Origin: Nitrospira sp.
GTDB taxonomy: Bacteria > Nitrospirota > Nitrospiria > Nitrospirales > Nitrospiraceae
Length of the DNA: 43,566 nt
Assembly: GCA_029881435.1 (NCBI GenBank)
Contig: JAOUMR010000018.1
Span: 1 to 43,566 of the forward strand
Direction of reading: 5' to 3'
Part shown: positions 18,278 through 43,566 of the stretch, one piece after another
Layout of the letters: each line of letters opens with the position of its first letter
Numbering within the stretch: position 1 is the stretch's first letter
Translations under genes and position numbers: made by a program
Notes under the pieces: generated by a model
What the model saw: only the letters and a program-made list of their open reading frames with translations
What the model was told of the DNA's origin: nothing
Databases searched by the model: none

Positions 18278-19057
18278 TTACGGAGTCTTCGCGCAACGGA
18301 ACCCATAGCCGAACTGCTGACCGGATGGATCGGCATTGAAACGGAAAGAGGTGCGTAGAAATTCGGGAACATAGAGCCACGACCCGCCCCGCACGACCTT
18401 CGTGTCGCCTTTTGCCGGCCCGATGGGGTTCTTTTCAGGACCTTTCTTATAAAACTGATTCCCGTACCAATCGAAGACCCATTCCCAGGCATTACCGGCC
18501 ATATCGTAGATGCCATAGGGACTTTTCCCGGCCTCGAACGACCCAACGGGAGTTAACGCCTGGTGATCATCCCAATCCTTTCTTCCAAAATTCGCATGGA
18601 GTCGAGTCGGCGCTTCATTCCCCCAGGGATAGATCCGCGCATCTGTTCCTCGCGCCGCCTTCTCCCACTCCGCTTCCGTCGGTAGGCGCTTACCGGCCCA
18701 TTTGCAGTAATTGACCGCATCCTCCCACGTCACGTTGACGACCGGGCGTCTTTGATGTTGCGGTTGATTCATAATGCTCCAGTCCGGTGGCTCCTCCATG
18801 TCCGTTACCTTCAGATACCTGGCATACTGTCCCACCGTCACCTCGTACTTATCCATGTAGAAGGCATTGAGGTAGATCCTCCGTGCGGGTTTTTCGTCAT
18901 CCGCGTGATTGCTTCCCCTCGTGAACTTCCCGGCAGACACCAACACCATCTGCTGATCCAGTGTATCGGCCTGCGATCCACTTTCTGCGGCATGTGCAAC
19001 CTCCCCCGAAGCCATGAAGAGGCACAACAGAGTCATTCTCACCAGCATGTGTCTCAT
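18278..19057 (-). CDS. Secreted SUMF1 (formylglycine-generating-enzyme-like) protein
   Basis: A 259-residue exported protein. The start at 19057 is fixed by GGGAGGGG a few bases upstream; the frame runs on to 19156 with no better site. Residues 1-24 are a signal peptide ending near AHA. The rest is a SUMF1/C-type-lectin-like fold with the standard landmarks MVLVSAGKFTRGS, AFYMDKYEVTVGQYARYL, PVVNVTWEDAVNYCKWAGKR, RLPTEAEWEKAARG, YDMAGNAWEWVFDWYG, VRGGSWLY and FGYGFRCA. The two neighbouring Cys residues of true formylglycine-generating enzymes are absent from the segment after RGGSW, so sulfatase maturation is unlikely. Most such proteins are structural or of unknown function. Confidence 0.86.
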   Translation of the reverse strand: MRHMLVRMTLLCLFMASGEVAHAAESGSQADTLDQQMVLVSAGKFTRGSNHADDEKPARRIYLNAFYMDKYEVTVGQYARYLKVTDMEEPPDWSIMNQPQHQRRPVVNVTWEDAVNYCKWAGKRLPTEAEWEKAARGTDARIYPWGNEAPTRLHANFGRKDWDDHQALTPVGSFEAGKSPYGIYDMAGNAWEWVFDWYGNQFYKKGPEKNPIGPAKGDTKVVRGGSWLYVPEFLRTSFRFNADPSGQQFGYGFRCAKTP

Positions 19058-19533
19058 GGACCCCCCTCCCAAATTATGATCACCAGGTACATCCGATCTC
19101 ACCCGTCTGAAAACATAGGAAGCCTGAACATGTCCTGCACGCTTACCTGATAACACTTACAAGATTGATGCCTGACCTTCCATGCAACGAACACTCGGAC
19201 GGCCGTAACTAATACTCCTCCCAAACACTTTCATTCCAATTGGGAGCGCGGTATCGTCGACCCCTGACTGCGCGCATGGAACGATCTGTACCTAACAACA
19301 GCACGCCTTCCCTTCTCAACTCCACTTCCTTAGCGGGTGGAAGGATGGAGCGTTTCCATGACGCCATAGCACGTTTGCACTCATCTTGAGGTCATGTAGC
19401 GTGCGACGGCATTGCGCCACCCTGGCGCAGCCTTATAGGAGCACGCGGCGCTAACGTACCTGTTCAAAATGTTGTTATGTTATCTGCGCATCATGGCGCC
19501 ATAGAAATGCTTCACCTTTCCAACCGCTCTCCC
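19058..19533. other. Intergenic region with a short perfect hairpin
   Basis: No gene is seen in these 476 bases. A perfect 7-bp stem TGCGCCA-CCC-TGGCGCA lies at 19413-19429, about 105 bases downstream of the efflux-pump stop codon (minus strand). It has no T tract in that direction, so it may be a Rho-type end or a processing site. The SUMF1 gene leader occupies the left part. Confidence 0.4.
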
Positions 19534-28203: not shown

Positions 28204-28857
28204 CTACGTCGACACGCTCACGAGGCCCTCAGCAATTGCGTACTTGATTAGCTCGGCGGTGGAATGTAGATCGAGCTCGCCCATGATGCGAAACTTGTGG
28301 AATTCTACGGTCTTCACGGAAATATTGAGAATGGAGGCGATCGCCTTGGTGCTTTTTCCTTCCGCGACAAGCTGGAGCACCTCACGTTGCCGTTGCGTCA
28401 AAGACGACACCAACGGCTTGCTTGGCTGCCCATCTGGAGATTGGAGCGTCGCCGCCAACACATCCTTCGTGATCAGCGGAGTCATGTAGTGTTGACCCGT
28501 CATGACCGCCTGGATAGCTTGCTTGAGTTCCACCGCCGCTGAACGTTTGATCAGATAGCCTGCGGCCCCAGCCTTAAAGGCTTCGGTGGCATAGGTGGGA
28601 GTGGCATGCATAGTCAGAAAGATGAGCTTGCTTTCCGGCACCGACTTGGTCAACTGGCGTGCCGCATCCAGCCCGTTGAGCAGCGGCATAGAGATATCGA
28701 GCAATATGATATCTGGGCGTAGCTGCTCAGCCATATCGACCAGCGTACGCCCATCTTCCACCATCCCAACCACTTCGCCCTCAGCTTCGACCAGCTTCCG
28801 TAGCCCAGCCAGAACAATGGCGTGATCATCTGCCATCAAAATACGCGGCCGTTTCAT
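28204..28857 (-). CDS. NarL/FixJ-type response regulator
   Basis: A 217-residue two-domain regulator. The receiver has the acidic pocket D10-D11, the phosphoacceptor D54 (DIILLDISMP), the conserved Thr in LIFLTMHAT and Lys in GYLIKRSAAV. A linker leads to a LuxR-type HTH at ~150-210 (SLTQRQREVLQLVAEGKSTK, AIASILNISVKTVEFHKFRI), which binds DNA as a dimer. Its start overlaps the stop of the histidine-kinase gene by four bases, so kinase and regulator are coupled as one system. Target genes cannot be read from sequence. Confidence 0.93.
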   Translation of the reverse strand: MKRPRILMADDHAIVLAGLRKLVEAEGEVVGMVEDGRTLVDMAEQLRPDIILLDISMPLLNGLDAARQLTKSVPESKLIFLTMHATPTYATEAFKAGAAGYLIKRSAAVELKQAIQAVMTGQHYMTPLITKDVLAATLQSPDGQPSKPLVSSLTQRQREVLQLVAEGKSTKAIASILNISVKTVEFHKFRIMGELDLHSTAELIKYAIAEGLVSVST

Positions 28858-31800
28858 GTGACCTCCATCTCAAATGGCACCCAGGCACAGACCTTCGTCC
28901 CATGGGTCGGTCTCGATTGAATTCGGAAGAAACCATGCAAGCGCCGCAACCGTTCCTCCATACTGCTCAAGCCCAAGCCTTGTCCTTGGGTGCTCTGGTC
29001 ATCGAGATTAAATCCCTTTCCGTTATCAGTGACAGAGAGGCCGAGCCCTGTGGAAGACCCACGGAGCCGGACGGTCACCAGCGTTGCCTGCGCATGTTTC
29101 ACCACGTTCTGGACGCTCTCCTGCATCACCCGGAAGAGACAGGTGGCGTGATCGAGGGGGACGACAGTCGGAACCCCAAGAATCTTCAGACGGATCGGCA
29201 GGCCCGTGCGCCGGGAAACCTGCTGGACATGGTCTTCAACAGCGGGGCGCAGTCCGGCATGTTCCAAGAGCGACGGATGAAGACGGTACGCAAGGCTGTG
29301 CACATCATCAGAAACCTCTTCCAACCCTTGGCGCAAGGTTGTCAGCCCTTTCGCAAGTTCAGTGGGTGCGATGGAAGGATGGTTCTCGAACGACGCGACT
29401 TCCAGTACCAGCGCAGCCAGTCGCTGGCTCACATCGTCATGCAGGTCCCGAGCGATGCGTCGCCGCTCCTGTTCTTGCGCCGTCAGGAGCTTGGAGTTCA
29501 GCTCCTCCAGCTGCACCTGATGCTGATGCAGCTCCTGCTGGTTACGATGAAGCGCCTCTTCCGCCTGCTTGCGTTCGGTGATGTCGCGATTGGACTCCAG
29601 CGCGTATTCCGTACCGCCATAGGTAACCCGCACATGCCGACTCTCGACGATCAGCCGCCGACCATCCTTGGCCATGTGGGTAATCTCACCATACCACCGG
29701 CCTTCTTGCGCGAGGCAGGCCTCCATTTCTTTGATCGTTGTCGGAGGGCTCGTGTTGAGCAGCGTATGGCTGCTGCGCCCGATCACCTCCTCCGATCGCC
29801 ATCCGTAGAGCTCTTCTGCCCCGCGGTTCCAGTACACGATGCCGCCACCGATCTTCCACACAAAAATGGCATCGTGGGATTGATTCAGCAGGTCCGCTTG
29901 CTGTCGAAGCAACTCCTCCGCTTGCTTACGTTCTGTGATGTCGACCGCGACACCTCCGAACAGAACCGGAGCCCCTTTATGATCGACAATGGGGAATTTA
30001 CTGACAACGGCGTGCCGAATCTCTCCATGTTGGATGAACGACTCGACGGTGTGTAGCGGAACTCCACTTTCCCGCACTTTCCTATCGTGTAGCTCATACT
30101 CCTCCGCAACATCAACCGGCCACAATTCATAGGCAGTCTTTTCCTTCCAATCCAATCCTTTGAGGACAGATTCTTGGAAAAGTCGATTGACGTAGAGGTA
30201 TCGTCCTTGACCATCTTTGATCCACGCGAAGCCATGCAAATTATCCATGAAGGAAGCGAATTGACGCTCACTGAGCTTCAGTGCCTCCTCGGCTTGTTTG
30301 CGTTTCGTGATGTCGATCATCGCCCCCAAGGTTCGTGTGGGGCGACGCGCAGCTCCTTCGTTGTCGAATAACGTCCATGATCGCAAGCTCAGCCAGCCGA
30401 TACTGCCGTCAGGCCGCACCACACGGTGCTCCATCAAGTTCAGATCGTCACCTGCAGAATTATTGGTCAGCTTCATCGCTGTCACGACCGCTTCGCGATC
30501 ATCCGGGTGGATGAGCTTAATGTACCCCTCTACAGAGGCCGGTTCGCCCAATCCCACTCCATAGAGTTCTCTCATCACCGGTGACCAGTAGACGTTCCCA
30601 GTGCGATGGTCGTGATCAAAAATACCAAAGTTCGCCAGGCGAACGACCTGATCTGATCGCTCCTCGGTCTCATGGAGGACGCGCTGTGCCTCCACGCGAG
30701 CGGTCACATCTTCCGTGGCGATCACGATACCGCCGACTTCGTTCCCGCGATACCAGGGGCGAACATTCCAGCTGATCCACTGTACGGAGCCATCAGATCG
30801 GACGAACAGGTCCTCGTCTTCGCTGAGAATTTGTCCGGCCAGACCTCGGCGATGAACCTCCTTCCATCGAGCTGGAATATCGGGAAACAGGTCATAGTGG
30901 GACCGACCGATGACACAATCTCCTGTCAGCTGATACTCCTCCATCCAGCGACGGCTCGCCCCGAGATAACGCATGTCTCGGTCGAACATCGCGATGGCGG
31001 CAGGAGCATGCTCAATAAATAACCGCAAACGCTCCTCGCCTTCCCGCAGTGCTTCGCTCGCCCACTTCTGACTGGACACGTCGACTTGAAATCCGATGAG
31101 TTCGAGCGGCACACCAGCATCATCCCGAACCAGACGCACTTCATCACGAAGCCAGCGATAGGTCCCGTCCATATGAAGGAACCGGTACTCGCGTATGTTA
31201 CGACCGTGTTGAAAGGTTCTCGATAGGCCAGCCAGCACATACGCACGATCATCTGGATGAATATGATTGATCCAAAAATCCGAGTGGTCGGTGAAGTCCC
31301 GCGCACTGTACCCAAGCTGCTCCACCACGTTCTCACTGACGAATGTCGCGCCATAATCCCCGCTTGCCCTACAGGCGTAGAGCACCACCGGGGTGGACGT
31401 CAACAAGATTTGCTGTCTCGCCTGCACAGTTCTCAATGCCGCCGTGCGTTCTTCGACGCGCTGTTCGAGTGTCTCGTTGAACCGGCGAAGTGCGTCTTCC
31501 GCCTGCTTACGCTCCGTGATGTCATTGCCAATTGTGAGCATGCAGGGCTTCCCGTTGAGCTTGATTAAGTTCGTGGCAACGAGGAACTTCCGGAGTTCTC
31601 CGTTCCGCATCCGCATGGATACTTCAAGATTCCTGACCGCTCCTTCTGAACGAAGTCGATCGATCAATCTCGCACGCTCCTGGGGATCAGGCCAGATCCC
31701 CAACATCAACGTGGTCTTTCCGATGACTTCGTCCCGCTTAAAGCCGAAGATCTCTAGGCATGCGTCGTTGATCTCGAGACAGAGCCCGGTCTCGAGGTCC

Positions 31801-31958
31801 GTGATACCGATCGGGTGAGGACTCAGGCGGAAGGCTTCGGCAAAGAAGTCGTCCGTTGCCGATTGGACGGCGTTTTCTTGCCGATCTCCTGCGTGAAGTG
31901 CGGGTGAAAGCGGTCGTGCCCTCACCCAACGCGTTTTCTTGGCGGCTTTGGGTGCCAT
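28854..31958 (-). CDS. Soluble multi-PAS sensor histidine kinase (HisKA_3 / NarL-type partner)
   Basis: A 1034-residue cytoplasmic kinase with no transmembrane segment. Six PAS/PAC units can be counted from repeated ends such as DITERKQAEDAL, DVSSQKWASEAL, DVTARVEAQRVL, DITKRKQAEEAL, DITERKQAEELL and DITERKQAEEAL. The first begins near residue 34 (FFAEAFRLSPHPIGITDLET). A coiled-coil stretch leads to the HisKA_3 dimerisation helix with phosphoacceptor His840 (ARDLHDDVSQRL). The HATPase follows with N-box QESVQNVVKHA, G1 DNGKGF and G2 GQGLGLSSMEERL. Ligands of the PAS domains are unknown; no obvious haem or flavin motif is visible. Acts on the overlapping NarL-type regulator. Confidence 0.92.
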   Translation of the reverse strand: MAPKAAKKTRWVRARPLSPALHAGDRQENAVQSATDDFFAEAFRLSPHPIGITDLETGLCLEINDACLEIFGFKRDEVIGKTTLMLGIWPDPQERARLIDRLRSEGAVRNLEVSMRMRNGELRKFLVATNLIKLNGKPCMLTIGNDITERKQAEDALRRFNETLEQRVEERTAALRTVQARQQILLTSTPVVLYACRASGDYGATFVSENVVEQLGYSARDFTDHSDFWINHIHPDDRAYVLAGLSRTFQHGRNIREYRFLHMDGTYRWLRDEVRLVRDDAGVPLELIGFQVDVSSQKWASEALREGEERLRLFIEHAPAAIAMFDRDMRYLGASRRWMEEYQLTGDCVIGRSHYDLFPDIPARWKEVHRRGLAGQILSEDEDLFVRSDGSVQWISWNVRPWYRGNEVGGIVIATEDVTARVEAQRVLHETEERSDQVVRLANFGIFDHDHRTGNVYWSPVMRELYGVGLGEPASVEGYIKLIHPDDREAVVTAMKLTNNSAGDDLNLMEHRVVRPDGSIGWLSLRSWTLFDNEGAARRPTRTLGAMIDITKRKQAEEALKLSERQFASFMDNLHGFAWIKDGQGRYLYVNRLFQESVLKGLDWKEKTAYELWPVDVAEEYELHDRKVRESGVPLHTVESFIQHGEIRHAVVSKFPIVDHKGAPVLFGGVAVDITERKQAEELLRQQADLLNQSHDAIFVWKIGGGIVYWNRGAEELYGWRSEEVIGRSSHTLLNTSPPTTIKEMEACLAQEGRWYGEITHMAKDGRRLIVESRHVRVTYGGTEYALESNRDITERKQAEEALHRNQQELHQHQVQLEELNSKLLTAQEQERRRIARDLHDDVSQRLAALVLEVASFENHPSIAPTELAKGLTTLRQGLEEVSDDVHSLAYRLHPSLLEHAGLRPAVEDHVQQVSRRTGLPIRLKILGVPTVVPLDHATCLFRVMQESVQNVVKHAQATLVTVRLRGSSTGLGLSVTDNGKGFNLDDQSTQGQGLGLSSMEERLRRLHGFFRIQSRPTHGTKVCAWVPFEMEVT

Positions 31959-32371: not shown

Positions 32372-33478
32372 TCACGAATCGGTGCGGACACGGAATCGCG
32401 GTTCCAGCGCCTTCAGGTTTTCCATGATGCCGGTATACTCCAGTTCCGCCATGGGCAGCATCGCAGCCCCAAAGAACCCCTGGCGTCGCATGCCGATAGC
32501 TTTATCGGAAACGGTGTCCCGCACTCGGCTCCAGAACGGATGGGCAAACGCGTCCGCCGGTTCGGTAAACCGTCCTTCGTGCATGGCGAACGCGGCACAG
32601 GTGATCACCGGAGGGCCATCGAAGTAGCTGATCCCCGACTGAAGCGGGACCGGCATCAAGGGCATCTGGTGAGAGCCACGCATACCACCTGCCACATACG
32701 CACCGACTGCATAGGGCGCTAAGACCTCGCCCGTCGCCGGAAAATCCTTCTGTACCCGCACCAGCATCACCGGGTCGTCCTTGCCGGTGTACTTCCCGGC
32801 AATGTTATGCAACCGTGAGGTGGATGCCACCACCGCTTGGTCGCCGCTGGCGACGGACCAAACCGATTCCACGACGTAACGTTCGGTGTCCCGCAACAGC
32901 GCGGCAATCTTGTACAATTCTTTCGGGGCATCGAGCTCGATGAGCTTGTCACCTTCCGTATGGTTCACGTCCATGATGACGAAGCGAAAACCTTGTGCCA
33001 TGTTGGGCGCCAGTATCAAACCTGGTGTGTTCATGGGGTCGGCGAAGGCCAGATAGAGCGGGAGATTAAAAGCACCGGGATCGGTCTTGTCAGCCGCGAA
33101 GAACAAAAAGGGCTCATTCGGCCGCTCGTTGAATTCCATCTCCGCCACGGCCGGTCCCATCCCCCGCACGTTGCCTGAAAAGGCGTCTTTCAACAAATCC
33201 TGACCGGCACCGTACAGCCCCTGCTGTTTGGCCACTGCTGTCCCGGCGAGGAAGGCATCCCACGCCAGTTTATGGACGGCTTCGTGTCCCACGCCATGCC
33301 TGTGACTCATCAGGATCGCGATATCGTCACCGGTACTACTGATGTAATGGTCGATCAACAGCGAGGAGCCCTGCTTGGCAACATGACTCCGCACGCTTTC
33401 CAGCACTTGCCGCGATGGACAGATATGGCCGCCAATGGAACCGATATCGGCTTTGATGATGCTGAGGGTGACTTTCAT
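32372..33478 (-). CDS. fbp: Class V fructose-1,6-bisphosphate aldolase/phosphatase
   Basis: A 368-residue bifunctional enzyme of gluconeogenesis that condenses dihydroxyacetone phosphate with glyceraldehyde-3-phosphate and removes the 1-phosphate. The start at 33478 has AGAGGAG eight bases upstream; a longer frame to 33820 has no homology. It begins MKVTLSIIKADIGSIGGH, has metal-binding acidic clusters (ISSTGDDIAI, FNLPLYLAFADPMNTPG, VIMDVNHTEGDK), and the aldolase pair Tyr230 and Lys233 in GKYTGKDDP, where Lys forms the Schiff base. The C-terminal block is GISYFDGPPVITCAAFAMHE. Typical of archaea and deep-branching or autotrophic bacteria, and consistent with a Nitrospira-like autotroph. A minus-strand sigma-54-like element lies about 58 bp upstream. 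Confidence 0.93.
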   Translation of the reverse strand: MKVTLSIIKADIGSIGGHICPSRQVLESVRSHVAKQGSSLLIDHYISSTGDDIAILMSHRHGVGHEAVHKLAWDAFLAGTAVAKQQGLYGAGQDLLKDAFSGNVRGMGPAVAEMEFNERPNEPFLFFAADKTDPGAFNLPLYLAFADPMNTPGLILAPNMAQGFRFVIMDVNHTEGDKLIELDAPKELYKIAALLRDTERYVVESVWSVASGDQAVVASTSRLHNIAGKYTGKDDPVMLVRVQKDFPATGEVLAPYAVGAYVAGGMRGSHQMPLMPVPLQSGISYFDGPPVITCAAFAMHEGRFTEPADAFAHPFWSRVRDTVSDKAIGMRRQGFFGAAMLPMAELEYTGIMENLKALEPRFRVRTDS

Positions 33479-33974
33479 GGTGATACTCCTCTTCTGGAGG
33501 ACAATGAGCGCAGTTCTTGCCTGAACATAAACTACGCAATCCCGATGCCACAGAGATCTTCGCGAATCTTTCATACATTCCCATGGCTGGTTCATGGAGG
33601 TACGAAACACGGGCAACGAATCAGGTAATCGGTTGGGGTAGGCGTCTACAGCGAAGTGAGGCACGATGAGGCAAGATGCAACAGTGGACGAGTCCCACAC
33701 CCAGCCTTGCAACAAGCCGATAACTCCATCCTTACGATCGACGGCTCTCGCGATTCTGGCAGCGGCACCATCGTGCACCTGGCGGTCGCGTTCTCCGTGC
33801 ATACAGACCAGCTGATCCATCCTGAACCAGTATGCCGCAGATCAGATTATTCCCTTTGCGGCCATGGCAGCGGGCGACAGCCAGTTTGTCATTCCCGCGA
33901 TGGGCGACCCCTTCCGTGCGCAGCTTGTCCGTTCCTTCGCGCTTTGTTTAGAATGTTGTATCCCCGAGGTAATT
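33479..33974. other. Divergent intergenic region
   Basis: Nearly 500 bases between the aldolase/phosphatase (minus) and a lipoprotein gene (plus). Long open frames run through it on both strands as extensions of those genes, but they carry no recognisable protein. A sigma-54-like element for the minus-strand gene lies at 33536-33550. Confidence 0.4.
33536..33550 (-). promoter_or_regulatory. Sigma-54 (-24/-12) promoter candidate for the FBP aldolase/phosphatase
   Basis: On the minus strand the sequence reads TGGCATCGGGATTGC: TGGCA and TTGC are exact, with GG and GC ten bases apart. Transcription would start near 33525, leaving a ~47-base leader before the ATG at 33478. Confidence 0.5.
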
Positions 33975-34484
33975 ATGCCTCAGATCCTCGCTTCTGGCCT
34001 TCTGCTCGGTTTTCTGCTCGCGCTGGCGTCGTGTGGAGACTCCAGTTACCAAGTCCGTCAACCCATGGGCTATGGCGTGATGCCACCGGGAGAAACCTGG
34101 GTAGCTGTTGACAGCACCTACCAATCCCCGGCACGTAACATGGTGTACTTCGACCCAACGACGATTCGCCGAGACGGAGCTCGTGTCACGCTGTGGCAGT
34201 TAACCGACTATAAGGTGATGCAAGGGAACGCGCCGTTTGGGCGGTTCATGCTGGGGCCTCACCGGTTTTTCTCGACGAAGTCGCACAAGGAATTGGACTG
34301 CGTCAACAACCGTGTTCGGTTGTTGGCGTCCTCTGAGCACTCTCAACACATGGGCACCGGCGCCCAACATGCGGTGGCGGTTGCCCAAGGCTCCGGACTT
34401 CCCATTGAACCAGGCAGCATCAACGAGGCACTGTGGAACGTAGCCTGTGGCAAGACAGGAGAAGGTATCGATTATTCTTCATGA
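33975..34484 (+). CDS. Lipoprotein resembling the surface-adhesin protein E / CNP1-like group
   Basis: A 169-residue lipoprotein; GAGGT five bases before the ATG at 33975 fixes the start. The lipobox is LASC (Cys20). The mature domain contains WVAVDSTYQSPARNMVYFDP, TTIRRDGARVTLWQLTDYKV, then SHKELDCVNNRVRLLASSEH and a final NEALWNVACG. The two Cys residues (DCVNN and VACG) are in the positions where small secreted proteins of this group form a disulphide. Such proteins have a beta-rich fold and mostly unknown function. The similarity is by pattern only. Confidence 0.68.
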   Translation: MPQILASGLLLGFLLALASCGDSSYQVRQPMGYGVMPPGETWVAVDSTYQSPARNMVYFDPTTIRRDGARVTLWQLTDYKVMQGNAPFGRFMLGPHRFFSTKSHKELDCVNNRVRLLASSEHSQHMGTGAQHAVAVAQGSGLPIEPGSINEALWNVACGKTGEGIDYSS

Positions 34485-34492
34485 GGCGCTCT

Positions 34493-34623
34493 CGATGGGC
34501 ATGCCCTGTCCGCGACATGTGTCCTCTTGCTACAGATCGCAGTCGCTCCTTGTCGCAGAATTCCCCCAATCTTTCGTCCGTCGTTTGTTCCATCCCGCCT
34601 ACCCCTCTGAGATATGGCTCAAG
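34493..34623. repeat. Direct repeat, copy A (degenerate), left of the cytochrome cluster
   Basis: This ~131-bp stretch aligns along its length with 38430-38559, including shared blocks GCTACAG, CCTTGT-GCAGA-TTCCC and GAGATAT-GCTCAA. On the minus strand it can be read as fragments of the small gene at 38386-38646 (for instance GQGMP versus GQGML), but a one-base difference breaks the frame. It is a decayed second copy. Confidence 0.7.
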
Positions 34624-34649
34624 TGTCAAGCTTCCGGCTGAAGGAGTTC

Positions 34650-34664
34650 CGGCATCAACTTTGC
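34650..34664 (+). promoter_or_regulatory. Possible sigma-54 promoter of the porin-cytochrome operon
   Basis: CGGCATCAACTTTGC keeps GGCA and TTGC with correct spacing but has C for the first T, so the match is weaker than the others. The predicted start near 34676 gives a leader of ~85 bases before the cytochrome ATG at 34761. Confidence 0.35.
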
Positions 34665-34760
34665 GAGATATTAAATGGTTTAGAAAACAAAATGGTCGGA
34701 TCCCATAATGGCCCGCTCGTCTTTCTATTTACGGCACCGTATTTTGTCGAGGTGGGAACC

Positions 34761-35090
34761 ATGAGACGCGTTTTCATTGTCTTTATCGGTGTTTCCTTCC
34801 TAGCAGGTCTTCTTAACCTGCTACCTGTCTTCGCTCAAACGGAGGAAGCCATACTGCGCGGGCAGAATGTCTTCAAGACAAACAAATGCAGCGTGTGTCA
34901 TTCGATTGAAGGGAAAGGCGGCCGAATGGGACCAGACCTCAGCCAGGTCGGCTCACGCCGAGAAGCGGCATGGTTACATACGTTCCTCAAAGATCCTCGT
35001 TCCGTCATTCCGCAGGGCAAGCAGCCGCCATTTAAGGGAACAGACCAGGAGCGAGAGGAACTGGTGACGTACCTCTCTTCGCTACAATGA
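34761..35090 (+). CDS. Small monohaem c-type cytochrome
   Basis: A 109-residue periplasmic cytochrome. GAGGTGGG precedes the ATG at 34761; the longer frame from 34614 enters the degenerate repeat and is rejected. Signal peptide 1-25 ends at VFA-Q. The haem site is CSVCH (C43, C46, H47) followed by GKGGRMGPDLSQVGSR. The normal distal-ligand region of this class, usually with Met-Pro, reads GKQPPFKG: the Met is Gln. The terminal helix REELVTYLSSL is normal. The haem may use another axial ligand (for example the Met in GRMGP) or be five-coordinate. Its stop overlaps the next start by ATGA, so it is coupled to the decahaem protein and probably feeds electrons to it or takes them from it. Confidence 0.88.
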   Translation: MRRVFIVFIGVSFLAGLLNLLPVFAQTEEAILRGQNVFKTNKCSVCHSIEGKGGRMGPDLSQVGSRREAAWLHTFLKDPRSVIPQGKQPPFKGTDQEREELVTYLSSLQ

Positions 35091-36085
35091 GTTTCGACGT
35101 AGTAAGGACCATGCTCGTGCGAGATGCAACAGGCCTGCGGCGACGCCTATGGATCCGGCTCGTCGGATTGTTCAGCATCCTGCTGGCTTCCACCTTGTGG
35201 CAGTGCTCGCTTGACCAGCGACGCAACCAAGCGGTTTCCCCTCCCACCATCGCAGATGCCGCCTACGTGGGTTCTCAAACCTGCCTGGAATGCCATGCCG
35301 ACCATCAACAGAATATGGAATCAAGCCTTCATGGGAAGATTCTGCTCGGGTCGGTGGCTCGCACGGATCTGCAGAGGCACGGGTGCGAAGCCTGCCATGG
35401 CCCAGGAAGCCGACACCAGGAGGATTACTCCGACCCTTCCGCAATTATCACCTTCGGCTCAGGCTCCCCACAACCGGCTGTCAGCCAGAACGCCGTCTGT
35501 CTCCAATGTCATATGAAAGGCCGCCGACTCTTCTGGCAGGGGAGCGCGCATGAAATACGAGATGTTTCCTGCTTATCATGCCATTCGGTCCATAACGCGC
35601 AAACCCGCCATGCGAATCTGAGAGCGCCCTCTCAATTTCAGTTGTGCAGTCAGTGCCATGCGATCAAGGCTGCCATGGCATTCAATTGGGCGCACATGCC
35701 CGTCCGTGAGGGCAAGATGCAATGCGCCGATTGCCACAATGTCCACGGATCACTGACGGAATCACTCATTCAGGAAAACAGTGTGAACGAGAACTGCTAT
35801 CGATGTCATGCGGACCGAAGAGGACCGTTTTTGTATGAACACCCGCCGGTCCGTGAAAATTGCATCTCGTGTCATGTGGCTCACGGCAGCAACAATCCGC
35901 GGCTCCTGCGCATACGGCCTCCGCGGCTCTGTCAGCAATGCCACAATGAAGCCGGTCATCCCTCGACGGCATTCGGGTTACCGGGTGGCTTGGCCGATCG
36001 GCGAATGCTCGGACGCTCATGCCTGTCGTGCCATATCAATATCCATGGCTCCAACCATCCTTCGGGCTTCGCCCTCACACGCTGA
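35087..36085 (+). CDS. Decahaem c-type cytochrome, DmsE/MtrA/PioA family
   Basis: A protein of 332 residues with exactly ten CxxCH motifs: CLECH, CEACH, CLQCH, CLSCH, CSQCH, CADCH, CYRCH, CISCH, CQQCH and CLSCH. After a hydrophobic export segment at about 20-40, the first haem lies at residues 66-70 and conserved phrases such as VGSQTCLECH, HGCEACHGPGSRH, VSCLSCHSVH, MQCADCHNVHG and RENCISCHVAHGSNN follow. This is the MtrA/DmsE pattern, a linear haem wire that sits inside an MtrB-type barrel and carries electrons across the outer membrane. The ATG at 35087 overlaps the upstream stop; the ATG at 35111 has AAGGA just before it and may be the true start, giving a more usual signal peptide. The barrel gene follows 21 bases later. 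Confidence 0.93.
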   Translation: MSFDVVRTMLVRDATGLRRRLWIRLVGLFSILLASTLWQCSLDQRRNQAVSPPTIADAAYVGSQTCLECHADHQQNMESSLHGKILLGSVARTDLQRHGCEACHGPGSRHQEDYSDPSAIITFGSGSPQPAVSQNAVCLQCHMKGRRLFWQGSAHEIRDVSCLSCHSVHNAQTRHANLRAPSQFQLCSQCHAIKAAMAFNWAHMPVREGKMQCADCHNVHGSLTESLIQENSVNENCYRCHADRRGPFLYEHPPVRENCISCHVAHGSNNPRLLRIRPPRLCQQCHNEAGHPSTAFGLPGGLADRRMLGRSCLSCHINIHGSNHPSGFALTR

Positions 36086-36106
36086 TGTCTATGAGAGGAC
36101 TGGCAT

Positions 36107-38389
36107 GTGATGACCCCACATCGCCATCGAGTTAACACCCTTGCCGTGGCGATGGCTGGTATCGTCGCATTCACGGCCTTGTGCGGTGGAGGGCAGGTCC
36201 GCGGTGAGGAAATCGGGCCGCCGCCTCCCCACTGGAAAGAATCCCTGCCGTTCCGGCTGGAAGGAGAGGTGGAAGCGGGATTTCAGACGTTGAGCGGGAA
36301 CACCGGTTCGCCGACGTTCTTTGAATATCGCGATCTCGCAGGGAAGCCCACCATCCCGAACCTGCGGTTGAAGGCAGAGGACTCATTGGGAACCCGGTTT
36401 CTCGAACTGGGCGGGAGAAACATGACCAGAACTGATGGGTCTTTCTTTCTGCATGCGGGACAGTACAACGCGCTTCAATTTGACTTCGGCTATGACAGGC
36501 TCCCCCATGTGATCGGCTTGAATCGAACAACGATCTACAGCAATCAGGGAGGCGGTAAATTCGCTCTCCCCGGCGGGCCCCTTGATCCAGTTACCGAGGG
36601 AGCGTTCAATGCCGTGCCCGGCACGACGGTCGGCCAACGAAATGCGATCGCCTCGTCCGTGAACAGCCTGCTTCAGCCCACCAGCCTCGGCTTTCAAACC
36701 GATACGGCTCACATGGGGTTGCGATACCTGCTCACCCCTGACCTCACATTGACGGCCAACTATTCTCGGAGAGAGAAATCGGGCACGAGCCCATTCGGGG
36801 GTGTGATCGGCACCCCCGGCGGGCCGGTCGTGGAATTCGCCGCTCCACGCGACGAGCGCATTCATGAAATGGGAGCCACCGCCGAATACGCCAAGGATTG
36901 GTATCAGCTCCGCATGAACTACACCGCGTCGCTCTTTGAGAACGGAATCAATCAGGTTGAGTGGGACAACGTGTGCGGGAACGGGGCTCCCTGCGGAAAC
37001 CTTTCAGGCTTCGGTCGTGCCGCGACGATGCCGAACAACCTAGCGCACACTTTTTCCGGCGCCGGTGGCGCCAGCCTGCCCTGGTGGTACACCCGCCTGA
37101 CGGGAAACGTTTCCTACGCACTCTGGCGGCAGGACCAGACATTTATGCCGGTTTCGACGCTCTCCTCGCGCAATTTTTCCGATGCGGGAGCGACAAGTCC
37201 AAAAGCCGCCATGGACGTCCTGCTTGCCAGTTTTGGCCTGACCAGTCGACCTGTTTCAAGCGTCACACTGACGGCACGGTACCGCTACTACCATCTCGAC
37301 AACAACACACCGATACACACGTTCACCAGCGCGCTGTTTCCTGGCGATACCGGCGTCGGACAAACGAACCGTACGACGCCGATCAGCTTCCGCAAGCAGA
37401 ATGTGAGTGCCAATGCGGCCTGGCGGATGACGAACCACCTGACAGCCAAGATCGGCTACGAATGGGAACGCTGGGGCCGTTCGTTCCGGGAAGCCGCTGA
37501 GTCGGACGAGCATATCGGCAAGGCCGCGCTCGATTATCGGCCCACCGGCTGGGCGATCAGCCGGCTGACCTATAGCCATGGTGTTCGCACGATCGGTGCG
37601 GACGGCTATGTGCAAGTCAGTCCGATAACCGCCGTGGTGCTACCCCAGTTCAGAAAATTCGACCAGGCCGACCGCACACGAGACAAGGTCGAGTGGTTTC
37701 TTCACGCCACCCCGGTTGACCCGATTTCGTTCTCTTTGCAGGTCTATGCCCAGCAGGACCATTTTTTTAATACCAGCTATGGTCTGCAGCAATCTCGAGC
37801 CTATGGCTATTCCGGCGACGTGACTTGGACGCCGTTCGACCGGCTCAGTTTCATCGGGGGTTATGCCCACGACGACTACCAGTCACGCCAGCAAAATTGT
37901 CATGTGGCGTTCAACCCCCTTGGCCCCGGGCCCTGCGATCCGACGAACACCTATTTCAGTCGCCCGCGCGACTTATTGGATACGTGGCACATGGGGATGT
38001 ACGTCATCGCAATCCCTCAGCGCCTGGATCTGAGCCTAGATTACCGCTATACGTTCGGACGGAGTAAATACGGTATGAGTGGGACGTCAGGGGGGGCCGT
38101 CGCCGGCGATCCCGTCCCTATGCCGGATATCAAGAATGTGTTCCACGTCGTCCAGGCTTCAGCACGCTACCGAGTGACGCTCCACTGGACACTCAAGATG
38201 GTCTATCTGTACGAACGCTACCGCGAATCCGACTTTACCGTGGACAATGTGACTCCGTCACTGGCCAACGTAGTCGTGGACGGCTTCACAACTCCGTCTG
38301 CCTCGGATGTACGATCGGTCCTCATCCCGATCCAACACCCAGCCTATGAAGCCCATTTCATGGGGTTCAGCGTGGCGTACCAGTTCTAA
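36107..38389 (+). CDS. MtrB/PioB-family decahaem-associated outer-membrane beta-barrel
   Basis: A 760-residue outer-membrane porin. GTG at 36107 is seven bases after GAGGA; the ATG directly following is the alternative. A signal peptide ends near VRGEE. The rest alternates hydrophobic and polar residues with many Tyr, Trp and Phe, ending in the aromatic terminal strand FMGFSVAYQF as expected of barrels handled by Bam. MtrB/PioB-type phrases occur at the start (FRLEGEVEAGFQTLSGNTGS, FLELGGRNMTRTDGSFFLHA) and in FDRLSFIGGYAHDDYQSRQQ. The N-terminal CxxC of Shewanella MtrB is not seen. It should sheathe the decahaem cytochrome. No surface-exposed OmcA/MtrC-like cytochrome is encoded next to it, as in PioAB systems. 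Confidence 0.9.
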   Translation: MMTPHRHRVNTLAVAMAGIVAFTALCGGGQVRGEEIGPPPPHWKESLPFRLEGEVEAGFQTLSGNTGSPTFFEYRDLAGKPTIPNLRLKAEDSLGTRFLELGGRNMTRTDGSFFLHAGQYNALQFDFGYDRLPHVIGLNRTTIYSNQGGGKFALPGGPLDPVTEGAFNAVPGTTVGQRNAIASSVNSLLQPTSLGFQTDTAHMGLRYLLTPDLTLTANYSRREKSGTSPFGGVIGTPGGPVVEFAAPRDERIHEMGATAEYAKDWYQLRMNYTASLFENGINQVEWDNVCGNGAPCGNLSGFGRAATMPNNLAHTFSGAGGASLPWWYTRLTGNVSYALWRQDQTFMPVSTLSSRNFSDAGATSPKAAMDVLLASFGLTSRPVSSVTLTARYRYYHLDNNTPIHTFTSALFPGDTGVGQTNRTTPISFRKQNVSANAAWRMTNHLTAKIGYEWERWGRSFREAAESDEHIGKAALDYRPTGWAISRLTYSHGVRTIGADGYVQVSPITAVVLPQFRKFDQADRTRDKVEWFLHATPVDPISFSLQVYAQQDHFFNTSYGLQQSRAYGYSGDVTWTPFDRLSFIGGYAHDDYQSRQQNCHVAFNPLGPGPCDPTNTYFSRPRDLLDTWHMGMYVIAIPQRLDLSLDYRYTFGRSKYGMSGTSGGAVAGDPVPMPDIKNVFHVVQASARYRVTLHWTLKMVYLYERYRESDFTVDNVTPSLANVVVDGFTTPSASDVRSVLIPIQHPAYEAHFMGFSVAYQF

Positions 38390-38646
38390 CGACGGCGAGC
38401 CCTCGTCGATTCTTTCTTCACGCCCTTCTGGATGAGCATCCCCTGCCCGTGACTTGCGCATTTCGCTACAGCCTGCGGTTTCACCTTGTAGCAGAGTTCC
38501 CCAATCAGCTCAGCTCTCATTCCTCTCATCCCGTCTAACTCTTTGAGATATCGCTCAAATACCGAACTGCTGATCGAACGCGTCCTGGCGTCGACCTTGC
38601 TGGATATCCGATCAGTCATCTTGAGCACAGGTTGTTTGACCAGCAA
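38386..38646 (-). CDS. Small basic protein of unknown function, present in two copies locally
   Basis: A frame of 86 residues, convergent with the barrel gene and overlapping it by four bases. The likely protein starts at MTDRISSKVDARTR (ATG 38619) or upstream at TTG 38646; neither has a strong ribosome site. It contains VFERYLKELDGMRGMRAELI, GELCYKVKPQAVAKCASHGQ and a Lys/Arg-rich end. A degraded copy of its central part lies at 34493-34623. I do not recognise a family. The existence of a second, decayed copy argues that it was a real gene or part of a repeated element. Confidence 0.45.
   Translation of the reverse strand: MLVKQPVLKMTDRISSKVDARTRSISSSVFERYLKELDGMRGMRAELIGELCYKVKPQAVAKCASHGQGMLIQKGVKKESTRARRR
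38430..38559. repeat. Direct repeat, copy B (intact frame), right of the cytochrome cluster
   Basis: Aligns with 34493-34623 in the same orientation, roughly three quarters identical by eye, with one-base gaps. The two copies bracket the cytochrome-porin operon and are about 3.9 kb apart. Copy B keeps an open frame on the minus strand. Confidence 0.7.
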
Positions 38647-38682: not shown

Positions 38683-38883
38683 ATGTCCGTTGCCAAGATC
38701 ATCGAGATCAGTTCTGATTCGCCTACGAGTTTCGAGGATGCCATCGCCCAAGGAATCGCCCGAGCATCCAAGACCATCCACGGGATCAAGTCGGCGTGGG
38801 TGGCAGAGCAACATGTCGTGGTTGAAAACAACAAGGTCACCTTGTATCGCGTGGATCTGAAGGTCACGTTCGTAATGGATTGA
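38683..38883 (+). CDS. Dodecin family flavin-binding protein
   Basis: A 66-residue protein from ATG at 38683, preceded by a strong GGGAGGAG site. MSVAKIIEISSDSPTSFEDA, then IAQGIARASKTIHGIKSAWV and NNKVTLYRVDLKVTFVMD, gives the beta-alpha-beta-beta fold of dodecin, which assembles into a hollow dodecamer. The Trp in SAWV is the residue that stacks on flavin isoalloxazine rings in bacterial dodecins. It acts as a cytoplasmic flavin store or buffer. A weak -24/-12 match (TGGCGTCGACCTTGC at 38586-38600) lies upstream. Confidence 0.92.
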   Translation: MSVAKIIEISSDSPTSFEDAIAQGIARASKTIHGIKSAWVAEQHVVVENNKVTLYRVDLKVTFVMD

Positions 38884-40271: not shown

Positions 40272-43200
40272 ATGTCGTACATCGGCGTGAATATCGGCGC
40301 CCTTACGGTGAAGGTGGCAGCCCTCCGGGGCAACACCAGAACCGCTACAGTGCTGGCCCATCAAGGCCGACCGCTCGAGATCCTTGACGAGGTGCTGGCC
40401 CGTCCGGAGTTCGCGGACGCAGAGCATTTCGGTGTGTCCGGCCAGCTTGGTCATATTTCGGAAGTGGCCGCGGTGCAGCGGGCACTCCGAGAGAGCGACG
40501 GCACATTTGATGCGGTGGTATCGCTCGGCGGGGAATCATTCCTCGTGTACCTCCTGCTGGACGGGAGGATAAGCAATGTCGTGTCCCACAATAAGTGCGC
40601 CGCTGGCAGCGGCGAATTTTTTGTGCAGCAGATCGGCCGGATGGGACTGGGTATGGAGGAAGCGATCCAGCGATCCTTCAGCGGCAAGGTCGTACCGCTG
40701 GCGTCACGCTGTTCGGTCCATTGCAAATCGGACATTACCCACAAACTGAACCGCAACGAAGCCACACCCGAGGATATTCTCCACACGCTGCACGACAGCA
40801 TGTCCAACAAAGTGATTGCATTGCTGGAGAAAGGCACGCGCGAGCTGAAACGAGTCCTCTTGATCGGCGGCGTCACGCGCAACGACGCGATGCTGGCGGC
40901 ATTGCGCGCCAAGCTGCCCGCCACGGAGTTCGTGGTGCTCCCCGAAAGCCCCTGGTTCGAAGCCTGGGGGACCGCCCTGCTCGTGCAGGACTCACCAAAC
41001 GAGACATCTCCGATGATTGCCGCACAGCCAGGCCTCGGCCGTCTCCCGCCACTCCATCTCTATGGCGAACGGGTGCAAGTGATCGCCGCACCACCTCCAC
41101 AGGTCCCTCCCGAAGGGCCGTTGATTCTGGGGGTGGATGCGGGGTCGACGACGACCAAGGCCATTTTGATCGACCCCGCGACGCAGGCTGTGGTGGCGTC
41201 GCATTACGGACGGACTAAAGGAAATCCAGTCTCGGCAACCCGTGAGTGTCTTCAGGCACTTATCAGTCAGGTGGGCAATCATCAGATCGGCTTGATTGGC
41301 ACAACCGGATCGGCGCGTGAACTCGCCGGCGCTTACCTTGGCACCGAACATGTCTATAACGAGATCTCGGCCCATGCGGCAGGCGCAACACATTACGATC
41401 CGGACGTGGACACGATTTTTGAGATCGGCGGACAGGACTCCAAGTACATCTATCTGCGCAATGGAGTACCCATCGACTATGCGATGAACAACGCCTGTTC
41501 GGCAGGCACGGGCTCCTTTCTAGAGGAGAGCGCCCACAGTGACCTCGGCATTACGGTCTCAGACATCGGCGACCTGGCATTGGCCGCTCCGTCACCGGTA
41601 CACTTCAAGGCGACCTGCGCAGCCTTCATCAATTCCGACATTCGTCTTGCCCAGCAACAGGGCCACCCCCGGGATAACATCATCGCCGGACTGGTGTATG
41701 CCATTGCTGGCAATTATCTGAATCGTGTCAAAGGACCGCGCTACATGGGAAAGAAAATCTTTCTGCAAGGAGGCGTCGCGCTGAACCGAGCCGTCGGGTA
41801 CGCGTTCGCCCACAGTGTCGGTCGGCCAGTCGTGATCCCGCCTAACCCGGAATTGCTTGGCGCGCTGGGGGTCGGACTCCTGGCCCTGAAGCGGTCCGAG
41901 GCGATGCTGAGCCACACCGTCGATCTACTTACGCTCGGCGCACCGGAGATGGAGCGAGTCGGCCGGTTCACTTGTGGCGCGTGCAAGATGTACTGTAGCA
42001 TCGACCGGTTCGAGGTCGCTGGACGCCGGTTTCCTTTCGGAGGCCGTTGCAGCCTCTATGAAAATGTCTGGAAGCGCAAGGCCCGAACCGCAGCAGCTCA
42101 GGACCTGGTCGAGAAGCGAGCCGAGGTGCTTTTCCGGATCACCCCCGCGCCACCATCCGCCACCCCGAAATACGAGCGTGTAGAGCGCACCTCTTGGGGC
42201 GTGGGACCAGCCTATGAAAGCGCGAAGGCGTTTGTCCGCGAATCTCTGGGTCGTTCAACCGCGACCCCGATGGCGAGTGGCACGCGCATCGGCATTCCCA
42301 GAGCCCTGACGACGCACTCATTGTTTCCGCTGTACTCTACGTTCTTTTCCCGTATCGGCATGGAAGTCGTACTCTCGGATGTCGACCCGCGGGGCGATCT
42401 GAGTTCACATTCGGGATTCTGTTTCCCCGCGCAGATTGCGCACGGCGCCGTCTTGGACCTGGTGAAGAAAGGCGTAGGTCTGATCTTCATCCCGCACGTC
42501 GTACGCATGCCCCACCCAAACCAGTGCAAAGATTCGTACCTCTGTCCGATCACACAGGCCGGACCCTATTTTCTGGCCAAGGCATTTCCCGATCGCCGCT
42601 TACTCTCGCCCGTGCTGGAGTTCATCGACGGCTACGAGACCTGCTCTGCCTTGGTCGACATGGCGGTGGCGGAGTTGGGGGTCAGGCGCGAGGTGGCCGC
42701 CAGTGCGTGGGAAGCTGCCGTGCAGGCTCAGACGGAAGCCGAACGCACGCTCCGTGAGCTCGGGAAACAGGCGCTCGATGCAGCCATCGCCGCTGGTAAG
42801 CCAGCCATTCTACTCGCTGGCCACAGCTACAACGCCTTTACCCCGGAGGCGTCACAATCTGTAGGCAAGAAACTCTCGAGTATGGGAGTAGCCGTGATCC
42901 CAGCTGACTGTCTTATGTCGGATGGGGAGGGGCCGACCTCCTGGCACTTTGCCAACCAGATCTTGAATGCCGTCGGCATCGCAAAACGCCATCCCAACTT
43001 GTTCCTGCTGAGTGTCAGCAATTTTAGCTGCACGATCGACGCGTTCACCCACTCTATGCTTGCCTCGGAATTGGGCTCGAAACCCTACCTCGTCCTCGAA
43101 ATCGATGCGCACACCGCCGATGCCGGGGTCCAAACAAGGCTGGAAGCCTTCCTGGACATCATCCACAATTATCGGGACGTGCAGAGCGCCGCTGCCAGAC

Positions 43201-43566
43201 CCTTTGCCCCCTGCCGTCTCGTCGCAGGTGGCCGCGTCATCCGATCGAACGGCGAGTCCGTGTCGCTGACGGACCCGCAGGTGAAGGTTTACTTTCCGAA
43301 CTTCTCTCCCTACCACACGAGGGCCTTTGCCATGGGAGCCGGTTGGCTCGGGCTCCACCCCGGCCAAGTCATCCCGTTGGACCGCGCCCAACTCGACAAG
43401 GGGCTGCAACATACCTCAGGCCGCGAATGCCTCCCCCTGCCGATCTGCATCGGCCAGCTGCTTCAGATCCACGAGCAACGCCAACCAGGAGAGATCGCGG
43501 GCTTCTATATGCTCCAGGGTGGCGCACCCTGCGTCAGCGACGCCTATATGGGATATTTTGAACGAT
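40272..43566 (+). CDS. Large 2-hydroxyacyl-CoA dehydratase activase-type ATPase (BadF/BadG, DUF2229), partial
   Basis: The frame opens at ATG 40272 (AGAGGG upstream) and is open to the window end: 1098 residues with no stop. Residues ~1-245 form a first ASKHA ATPase domain: MSYIGVNIGALTVKVAALRG, KCAAGSGEFF near 108, and SRCSVHCKSD near 144; its phosphate loop is GGES instead of GGQDxK. Residues ~283-545 form a second: LILGVDAGSTTTKAILID, EIGGQDSKYI, ACSAGTGSFLEE near 407 and TCAAFINSD. Both keep the two Cys that in dimeric activators bridge a [4Fe-4S] cluster. A CGACKMYC motif follows near 565, then a DUF2229 domain from about 672 (RIGIPRALTTHSLFPLYSTF) and an unassigned C-terminal part. ATP-driven low-potential electron transfer is known for small activators; for this giant form the target is unknown. 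Confidence 0.88.
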   Translation, partial: MSYIGVNIGALTVKVAALRGNTRTATVLAHQGRPLEILDEVLARPEFADAEHFGVSGQLGHISEVAAVQRALRESDGTFDAVVSLGGESFLVYLLLDGRISNVVSHNKCAAGSGEFFVQQIGRMGLGMEEAIQRSFSGKVVPLASRCSVHCKSDITHKLNRNEATPEDILHTLHDSMSNKVIALLEKGTRELKRVLLIGGVTRNDAMLAALRAKLPATEFVVLPESPWFEAWGTALLVQDSPNETSPMIAAQPGLGRLPPLHLYGERVQVIAAPPPQVPPEGPLILGVDAGSTTTKAILIDPATQAVVASHYGRTKGNPVSATRECLQALISQVGNHQIGLIGTTGSARELAGAYLGTEHVYNEISAHAAGATHYDPDVDTIFEIGGQDSKYIYLRNGVPIDYAMNNACSAGTGSFLEESAHSDLGITVSDIGDLALAAPSPVHFKATCAAFINSDIRLAQQQGHPRDNIIAGLVYAIAGNYLNRVKGPRYMGKKIFLQGGVALNRAVGYAFAHSVGRPVVIPPNPELLGALGVGLLALKRSEAMLSHTVDLLTLGAPEMERVGRFTCGACKMYCSIDRFEVAGRRFPFGGRCSLYENVWKRKARTAAAQDLVEKRAEVLFRITPAPPSATPKYERVERTSWGVGPAYESAKAFVRESLGRSTATPMASGTRIGIPRALTTHSLFPLYSTFFSRIGMEVVLSDVDPRGDLSSHSGFCFPAQIAHGAVLDLVKKGVGLIFIPHVVRMPHPNQCKDSYLCPITQAGPYFLAKAFPDRRLLSPVLEFIDGYETCSALVDMAVAELGVRREVAASAWEAAVQAQTEAERTLRELGKQALDAAIAAGKPAILLAGHSYNAFTPEASQSVGKKLSSMGVAVIPADCLMSDGEGPTSWHFANQILNAVGIAKRHPNLFLLSVSNFSCTIDAFTHSMLASELGSKPYLVLEIDAHTADAGVQTRLEAFLDIIHNYRDVQSAAARPFAPCRLVAGGRVIRSNGESVSLTDPQVKVYFPNFSPYHTRAFAMGAGWLGLHPGQVIPLDRAQLDKGLQHTSGRECLPLPICIGQLLQIHEQRQPGEIAGFYMLQGGAPCVSDAYMGYFER

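Follow-up and report, generated by a model that had tools for sequence, protein, structure and literature searches.

Outer-membrane electron conduits of the MtrAB type are known from several gene arrangements. In Shewanella baltica (Protein Data Bank (PDB) entry 6R2Q), a decahaem cytochrome of about 330 amino acids (aa) and an MtrB-type barrel are encoded by adjacent genes. Sideroxydans lithotrophicus ES-1 combines a decahaem cytochrome and a barrel with MtoD, a small class I monohaem cytochrome, and has no MtrC; MtoD shows bis-His haem ligation and a potential of +155 mV (PMC4412085). PioABC of Rhodopseudomonas palustris TIE-1 likewise includes a decahaem cytochrome and a barrel without MtrC. 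Baker and colleagues found that the Pio and Mto proteins form no clade of their own and did not infer a direction of electron flow (PMC8805035). In the phylum Nitrospirota, the PCC complexes of Candidatus (Ca.) Manganitrophus were published as porin-dodecahaem conduits, PCC_1 was described as restricted to Ca. Manganitrophaceae, and Cyc2 was noted in Nitrospirales (PMC9040806). Here we describe three adjacent genes (the trio) on a contig of Nitrospira sp. (assembly GCA_029881435.1, contig JAOUMR010000018.1), analysed over its whole length of 43,566 nucleotides and hereafter called the window. The trio very probably encodes a minimal MtrAB-type outer-membrane electron conduit, the products of which would assemble into a complex. 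This is a known conduit type in an unexpected host, a complete ammonia-oxidizing (comammox) Nitrospira. No paper tying comammox or other Nitrospira nitrifiers to MtrB/PioB was found in the open-access papers searched; a subscription paper could have described one.

Identity of the conduit genes

The trio consists of the following genes:

34761-35090, + strand: monohaem class I cytochrome c gene, 109 aa, one CxxCH motif; PF00034, E = 3.7e-12
35087-36085, + strand: decahaem MtrA/DmsE-family cytochrome gene, 332 aa, 10 CxxCH motifs; TIGR03508
36107-38389, + strand: MtrB/PioB-family outer-membrane barrel gene, 760 aa; PF11854, TIGR03509

The genes are adjacent and co-oriented, their spacing is operon-like, and all frames are open. 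The monohaem and decahaem genes overlap by 4 bases (ATGA). A gap of 21 bp separates the decahaem gene from the barrel gene, whose start candidates are the GTG at 36107 and the ATG immediately next to it at 36110. An earlier note on this DNA had placed a trio with an overlapping monohaem gene at 34761-38389 and had counted ten CxxCH motifs in a protein of about 332 residues; the gene calls agreed on each point. Ten such motifs within 332 residues far exceed chance.

In profile searches, the decahaem protein scored 266.9 bits against TIGR03508 (DmsE/MtrA; NCBIfam cut-off 192.2), above the cut-off of the DmsE profile with which the note's assignment was to be checked. For the barrel, called MtrB/PioB-type in the same note, a profile search had been set beforehand as the result that could overturn the call. 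Both families came out above cut-off, with 353.4 bits against PF11854 (cut-off 23) and 268.1 bits against TIGR03509 (MtrB/PioB; NCBIfam cut-off 240.05). The top PDB sequence matches were chain A of 6R2Q for the decahaem protein (E = 1.2e-69) and chain B for the barrel (E = 7e-17). This entry is the Mtr complex by its title, the molecule names listed for its chains being misleading. The predicted fold of the decahaem protein matched 6R2Q_A (E = 1e-16, TMt 0.72). The AlphaFold model of the barrel (predicted local distance difference test, pLDDT, 82) was aligned with 6R2Q_B by VIA-align at Z 28.3 and a root-mean-square deviation of 2.4 Å (643/649 residues), the runner-up reaching Z 14.5. Membership of the MtrAB type is well supported because profile scores, sequence matches to 6R2Q and fold alignments agree, and the proposed MtrAB/PioAB-family porin-cytochrome conduit is upheld on the same grounds. 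A scan of IMG/VR using the barrel gave no match.

The decahaem protein contains ten conserved non-proximal histidines (82, 110, 155, 169, 203, 220, 252, 266, 291 and 320). Six of these are invariant across 49 relatives, two occur in 45-46 and two in 34-35, so that none is kept in fewer than 34. His324, found in 30/49 relatives, is an eleventh candidate. Together with the ten proximal histidines, these conserved residues would be enough for ten bis-His haems. We infer that the cytochrome is lodged within the MtrB-type barrel, where it would carry electrons across the outer membrane. Weighing against a working conduit are the model of the apo decahaem protein, which is only moderate (pLDDT 77, with a weak C-terminus), and the thin distribution of the MtrB/PioB barrel in the genus, where it was detected in 3/79 genomes (the host, G059 and G060).

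The host genome

The window is one contig of a draft genome of 3.72 Mb (99.85% complete, 206 contigs), which was surveyed as a whole by profile and pattern searches. The genome contains amoA (contig C152, positions 280-987). On this contig, HaoB scores above its cut-off and a CycA-like protein just below its own; an octahaem HAO-type protein and a CycB-like protein of the NapC/NirT type are also encoded there. Contig C109 encodes a 1145-aa NxrA-like molybdopterin subunit with a TAT signal and its NxrB-like iron-sulphur partner, a pair that we take to resemble the periplasmic NXR of Nitrospira. Because amoA, haoAB-cycAB and periplasmic-type nxrAB occur in one genome, the host is, by its gene content, a comammox Nitrospira; the earlier note had gone as far as a probable Nitrospira, to which these markers add the comammox type. 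Ammonia monooxygenase (AMO) was found in 47 of the 76 genus genomes sampled; G059 gave no match and G060 was outside the sample. Elsewhere, a cytochrome c domain fused to an FGE-sulfatase-type domain adjoins a NapC/NirT-family tetrahaem cytochrome (L227:2523-3842; G000:C100), and a second FGE-type protein is encoded at window positions 18278-19156.

The monohaem cytochrome

The first protein of the trio belongs to the class I cytochromes and apparently carries a Sec signal. In alignments, the usual distal Met position is occupied by Gln in both Nitrospira copies, and no Met following the haem motif is common to both. A relative from a member of the same class (L036) is 38% identical and retains the distal Met, and MtoD-like relatives have His at the Gln position. 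From these residues we predict non-Met haem ligation and a lowered potential for the Nitrospira monohaem.

The related monohaem gene of L036 has a cytochrome b/c fusion and a Rieske protein as its neighbours, and an MtrC-type protein and a barrel are nearby. This stretch (L036:3076-13756; G203) holds the barrel, the OmcA/MtrC-type decahaem, the b/c fusion, the Rieske protein and the monohaem relative, with no MtrA-type gene. In L056 (Ca. Sulfotelmatobacter), a cytochrome b/c fusion is followed by a monohaem-decahaem-barrel row. Because both clusters carry a monohaem beside a cytochrome b/c fusion, they support a role for the Nitrospira monohaem as a putative shuttle that links the conduit to a bc-type complex. 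It would carry periplasmic electrons between the conduit and the inner-membrane chain, which might be entered at a bc-type complex or a terminal oxidase.

Genomic context and putative promoter

The surroundings of the trio contain these features:

32372-33475, - strand: FBPase gene, left flank of the insertion; PF01950
33975-34484, + strand: Adhesin_E-like lipoprotein gene, ATG start at 33975, 169 aa, lipobox LASC; PF16747, E = 1.2e-25
34529-34566, + strand: promoter element copy 1, before the trio; GCTACAG-N12-CCTTGTCGCAGAATTCCCC, inverted GCTACA/TGT-GC half sites
34651-34664, + strand: sigma-54-like -24/-12 site of copy 1; GG-N10-GC, GGCATCAACTTTGC, ~97 nt before the first ATG of the trio
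38465-38502, + strand: promoter element copy 2, before dodecin; strict pattern match
38587-38600, + strand: sigma-54-like site of copy 2; GGCGTCGACCTTGC
38683-38883, + strand: dodecin gene, right flank of the insertion and ancestral neighbour; PF07311, E = 2.3e-23

A strict search of the 3.72-Mb genome for the 38-bp element GCTACAG-N12-CCTTGTnGCAnAnTTCCCC gave exactly two matches, both at this locus, and none for its reversed control. The surroundings of the two copies were 69% identical across 183 bp, and the element is conserved upstream of dodecin in relatives. Each GG-N10-GC site lies ~85 bp downstream of its element, a spacing kept in 8/8 copies compared across the genus. We infer that a copy of the dodecin-type promoter drives the trio, with an activator shared with dodecin; the consensus match points to putative control by sigma-54. 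A multi-PAS histidine kinase and a LuxR-type response regulator are encoded a few kb upstream of the conduit (window 28207-31958). On the 3' side of the barrel, the next genes are dodecin and then MlaC. Further along, a very long acyl-CoA dehydratase activase-type protein (window 40272-43565) runs off the contig and is conserved in relatives.

Distribution, insertion site and origin

The survey of related genomes proposed in the earlier note recovered the whole trio in G059, with its order unchanged, and part of the barrel in G060, where the contig end falls inside this gene. Protein identities to the window were 83, 90 and 93% in G059 (monohaem, decahaem and barrel) and 91% for the G060 barrel. 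G013, another species, has an empty site: FBPase adjoins dodecin-MlaC there, the matching stretches being only ~390 bp apart and the trio missing. The dodecin gene is syntenic in G013, G041, G059, G060 and G066. The G060 barrel adjoins dodecin-MlaC-activase, an arrangement shared with the window, and the placement of the trio is real because G060's own contig shows this same barrel-dodecin junction. The earlier description of a three-gene unit stands for the trio and had left out the lipoprotein gene, which travels with it. In G059, a 4.5-kb block that corresponds to window 33908-38405 (lipoprotein gene plus trio) was found on another contig at 89.4% DNA identity; its lipoprotein copy matched PF16747 (E = 8e-25). 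At the dodecin site of G059, a lipoprotein copy is joined to dodecin inside the repeated promoter element. The simplest reading is that the block was duplicated and its original copy then removed through recombination within the repeat, and mixed strains in the draft genome could also have produced this arrangement.

Between species, the ratio of non-synonymous to synonymous substitution rates (dN/dS) was 0.26 for the monohaem, 0.20 for the decahaem and 0.14-0.17 for the barrel gene, values that indicate purifying selection. The GC content of the trio (57.9%) is like that of its flanks, and no transposase or integrase was identified beside it among those of its neighbours that were annotated. 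The draft state of the genome with its 206 contigs and the rarity of the trio in the genus might speak for an assembly or binning artefact or for a decaying insertion. Both are scarcely credible in view of the genus-typical flanks, the open frames, the flank-like GC content, the junction in two genomes and the dN/dS range of 0.14-0.26, and both were rejected on the synteny in two genomes and the purifying selection.

In the barrel tree, the three Nitrospira barrels grouped with those of Ca. Rokuibacteriota, Ca. Sulfotelmatobacter and a Gemmatimonadota bin (support 95-96). Topology tests, for which the groups were picked after the tree was seen and in which branches were long, rejected joining the Nitrospira barrels to the main Nitrospirota barrel clade (p 0.0006) or to either same-class barrel group (p ~1e-6 to 6e-6). 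For the decahaem tree, every placement put to approximately unbiased (AU) tests stayed acceptable (p 0.10 to 0.35), so no donor is readable from it. Because the barrel groups with Rokubacteria, Acidobacteriota and Gemmatimonadota, outside other Nitrospirota, a recent ancestor of the host likely gained the conduit genes laterally.

Direction of electron flow

No OmcA/MtrC-type surface cytochrome is encoded adjacent to the trio, and the genome search with PF22113 gave none over the cut-off. Scores against TIGR03507 (OmcA/MtrC) seen in whole-protein scans were ≤21, far from the cut-off of 209. A multihaem spacing pattern proved too tight, missing the decahaem protein itself, and was not used as evidence of absence. 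The genome encodes tandem and single pentahaem cytochromes (L225:3264-5856 and L226:3419-4708; G000:C13 and C128) that are weakly similar to ExtKL and are possible partners; scanned whole, the pentahaem proteins just reach PF22113 (30.4 and 33.3 vs 30 bits). The earlier note had seen no surface multihaem cytochrome following the barrel, which holds true, and no full OmcA/MtrC family member was detected genome-wide. Since no dedicated surface cytochrome was found, the probable direct reaction partner of the outermost haem would be Fe(II)/Fe(III), an electrode or a soluble shuttle. From this layout the note had favoured a PioAB-like, possibly oxidizing conduit. MtrC indeed went undetected, but this does not fix the direction because Mto and Pio proteins fall among the MtrAB proteins of complete MtrCAB modules (PMC8805035).

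The conduit suggests that the host can exchange electrons with extracellular material. We prefer inward flow, a call that we regard as evenly balanced, in which Fe(II) or another external donor would be oxidized at the cell surface and feed an oxidase via the monohaem, a route already put forward for MtoAB-MtoD. The lack of MtrC combined with a monohaem shuttle resembles the mtoAB-mtoD layout (PMC4412085), although the monohaem itself is not MtoD-like, with Gln where MtoD-type relatives have His. The relatives of the barrel include Rokubacteria, in which PioAB homologues have been read as the mark of a possible iron oxidizer (PMC10654088), and the neighbouring cytochrome b/c fusions in L056 and L036 suggest coupling to a bc complex. 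Homology as such gives no direction, because there is no function-specific Pio/Mto clade (PMC8805035). The MtoABD-like layout and the aerobic host keep inward flow ahead of outward flow, by a small margin.

Outward flow, by which electrons from ammonia oxidation (as quinol or cytochrome c) would pass at low oxygen to Fe(III) or Mn oxides, humics or an electrode, is a close rival, if somewhat doubtful in itself. In its favour, MtrAB cores within MtrCAB modules typically work reductively and are capable of flow in either direction (PMC8805035), and Nitrosomonas communis, an ammonia oxidizer, may rely on multihaem cytochromes to use a poised electrode when oxygen is absent (PMC10415592). The host genome also encodes NapC/NirT-family cytochromes that could connect quinol to the periplasm, but no full member of the MtrC/OmcA family that could act as terminal reductase was detected. 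Moreover, at neutral pH the potential of nitrite-derived electrons is too high for the reduction of Fe(III) oxides. A non-respiratory role of the conduit in detoxification of metals or reactive oxygen species, redox sensing or iron homeostasis would fit the promoter element shared with the flavin-binding dodecin and the small lipoprotein gene associated with the trio. We consider it improbable, as decahaem wires are costly and the characterized homologues serve respiration or electron uptake.

Tentatively, and with slightly more doubt than confidence, we propose that in some comammox Nitrospira a laterally acquired conduit with an unusually ligated monohaem couples nitrification to iron oxidation or to electron discharge at low oxygen. 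Iron oxidation, if true, would be a second lithotrophic energy source beside complete nitrification; discharge, if true, would keep ammonia oxidation going in low oxygen by electrons leaving the cell. Either way, a genuine MtrAB wire would give some comammox Nitrospira an electron donor or acceptor beyond the nitrogen cycle. These bacteria occur widely in soils and groundwater filters, settings in which gradients of ammonium, Fe(II) and oxygen meet, and the trio is a specific marker for tests in cultures and biofilters. The trio also documents a likely lateral spread of conduits into nitrifiers, in a genus where most other members have none.

Comparison with known systems

The trio shares the adjacent decahaem and barrel genes with MtrAB of Shewanella baltica and differs from it in lacking MtrC and in having a monohaem gene upstream. 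In the structure alignments with 6R2Q, the decahaem protein was 42% and the barrel ~20% identical, and the Nitrospira barrel falls outside the Shewanella clade in the barrel tree. MtrCAB was rejected as an exact label, as no OmcA/MtrC-type decahaem surface cytochrome was detected. Compared by gene content, the trio is like PioABC in its decahaem-barrel pair and unlike it in that the small protein is a c-type cytochrome; the operon has no pioC gene for a high-potential iron-sulphur protein (HiPIP), for which reason the exact label PioABC was rejected too. The label DmsEFAB was discarded because no DmsA/DmsB molybdopterin genes occur among the annotated neighbours.

The layout of decahaem, barrel and small class I monohaem is that of MtoAB-MtoD. 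Unlike that system, there is no cymA at the trio locus, and the monohaem lacks the distal His of the MtoD type, as judged by alignment to MtoD-like relatives, not to MtoD itself. With Ca. Manganitrophus the trio has in common that both are conduits of the same phylum, those of Ca. Manganitrophus being of the dodecahaem kind. The decahaem protein is 42-49% identical to those of the Ca. Sulfotelmatobacter, Rokuibacteriota and Gemmatimonadota clusters (L056, L054 and L057), the barrel is 27-29% identical to those of L057 and L054, and the monohaem is only 20% identical to those of L056 and L057. The L056 cluster differs from the trio in adjoining a cytochrome b/c fusion and shares with it the gene order monohaem-decahaem-barrel.

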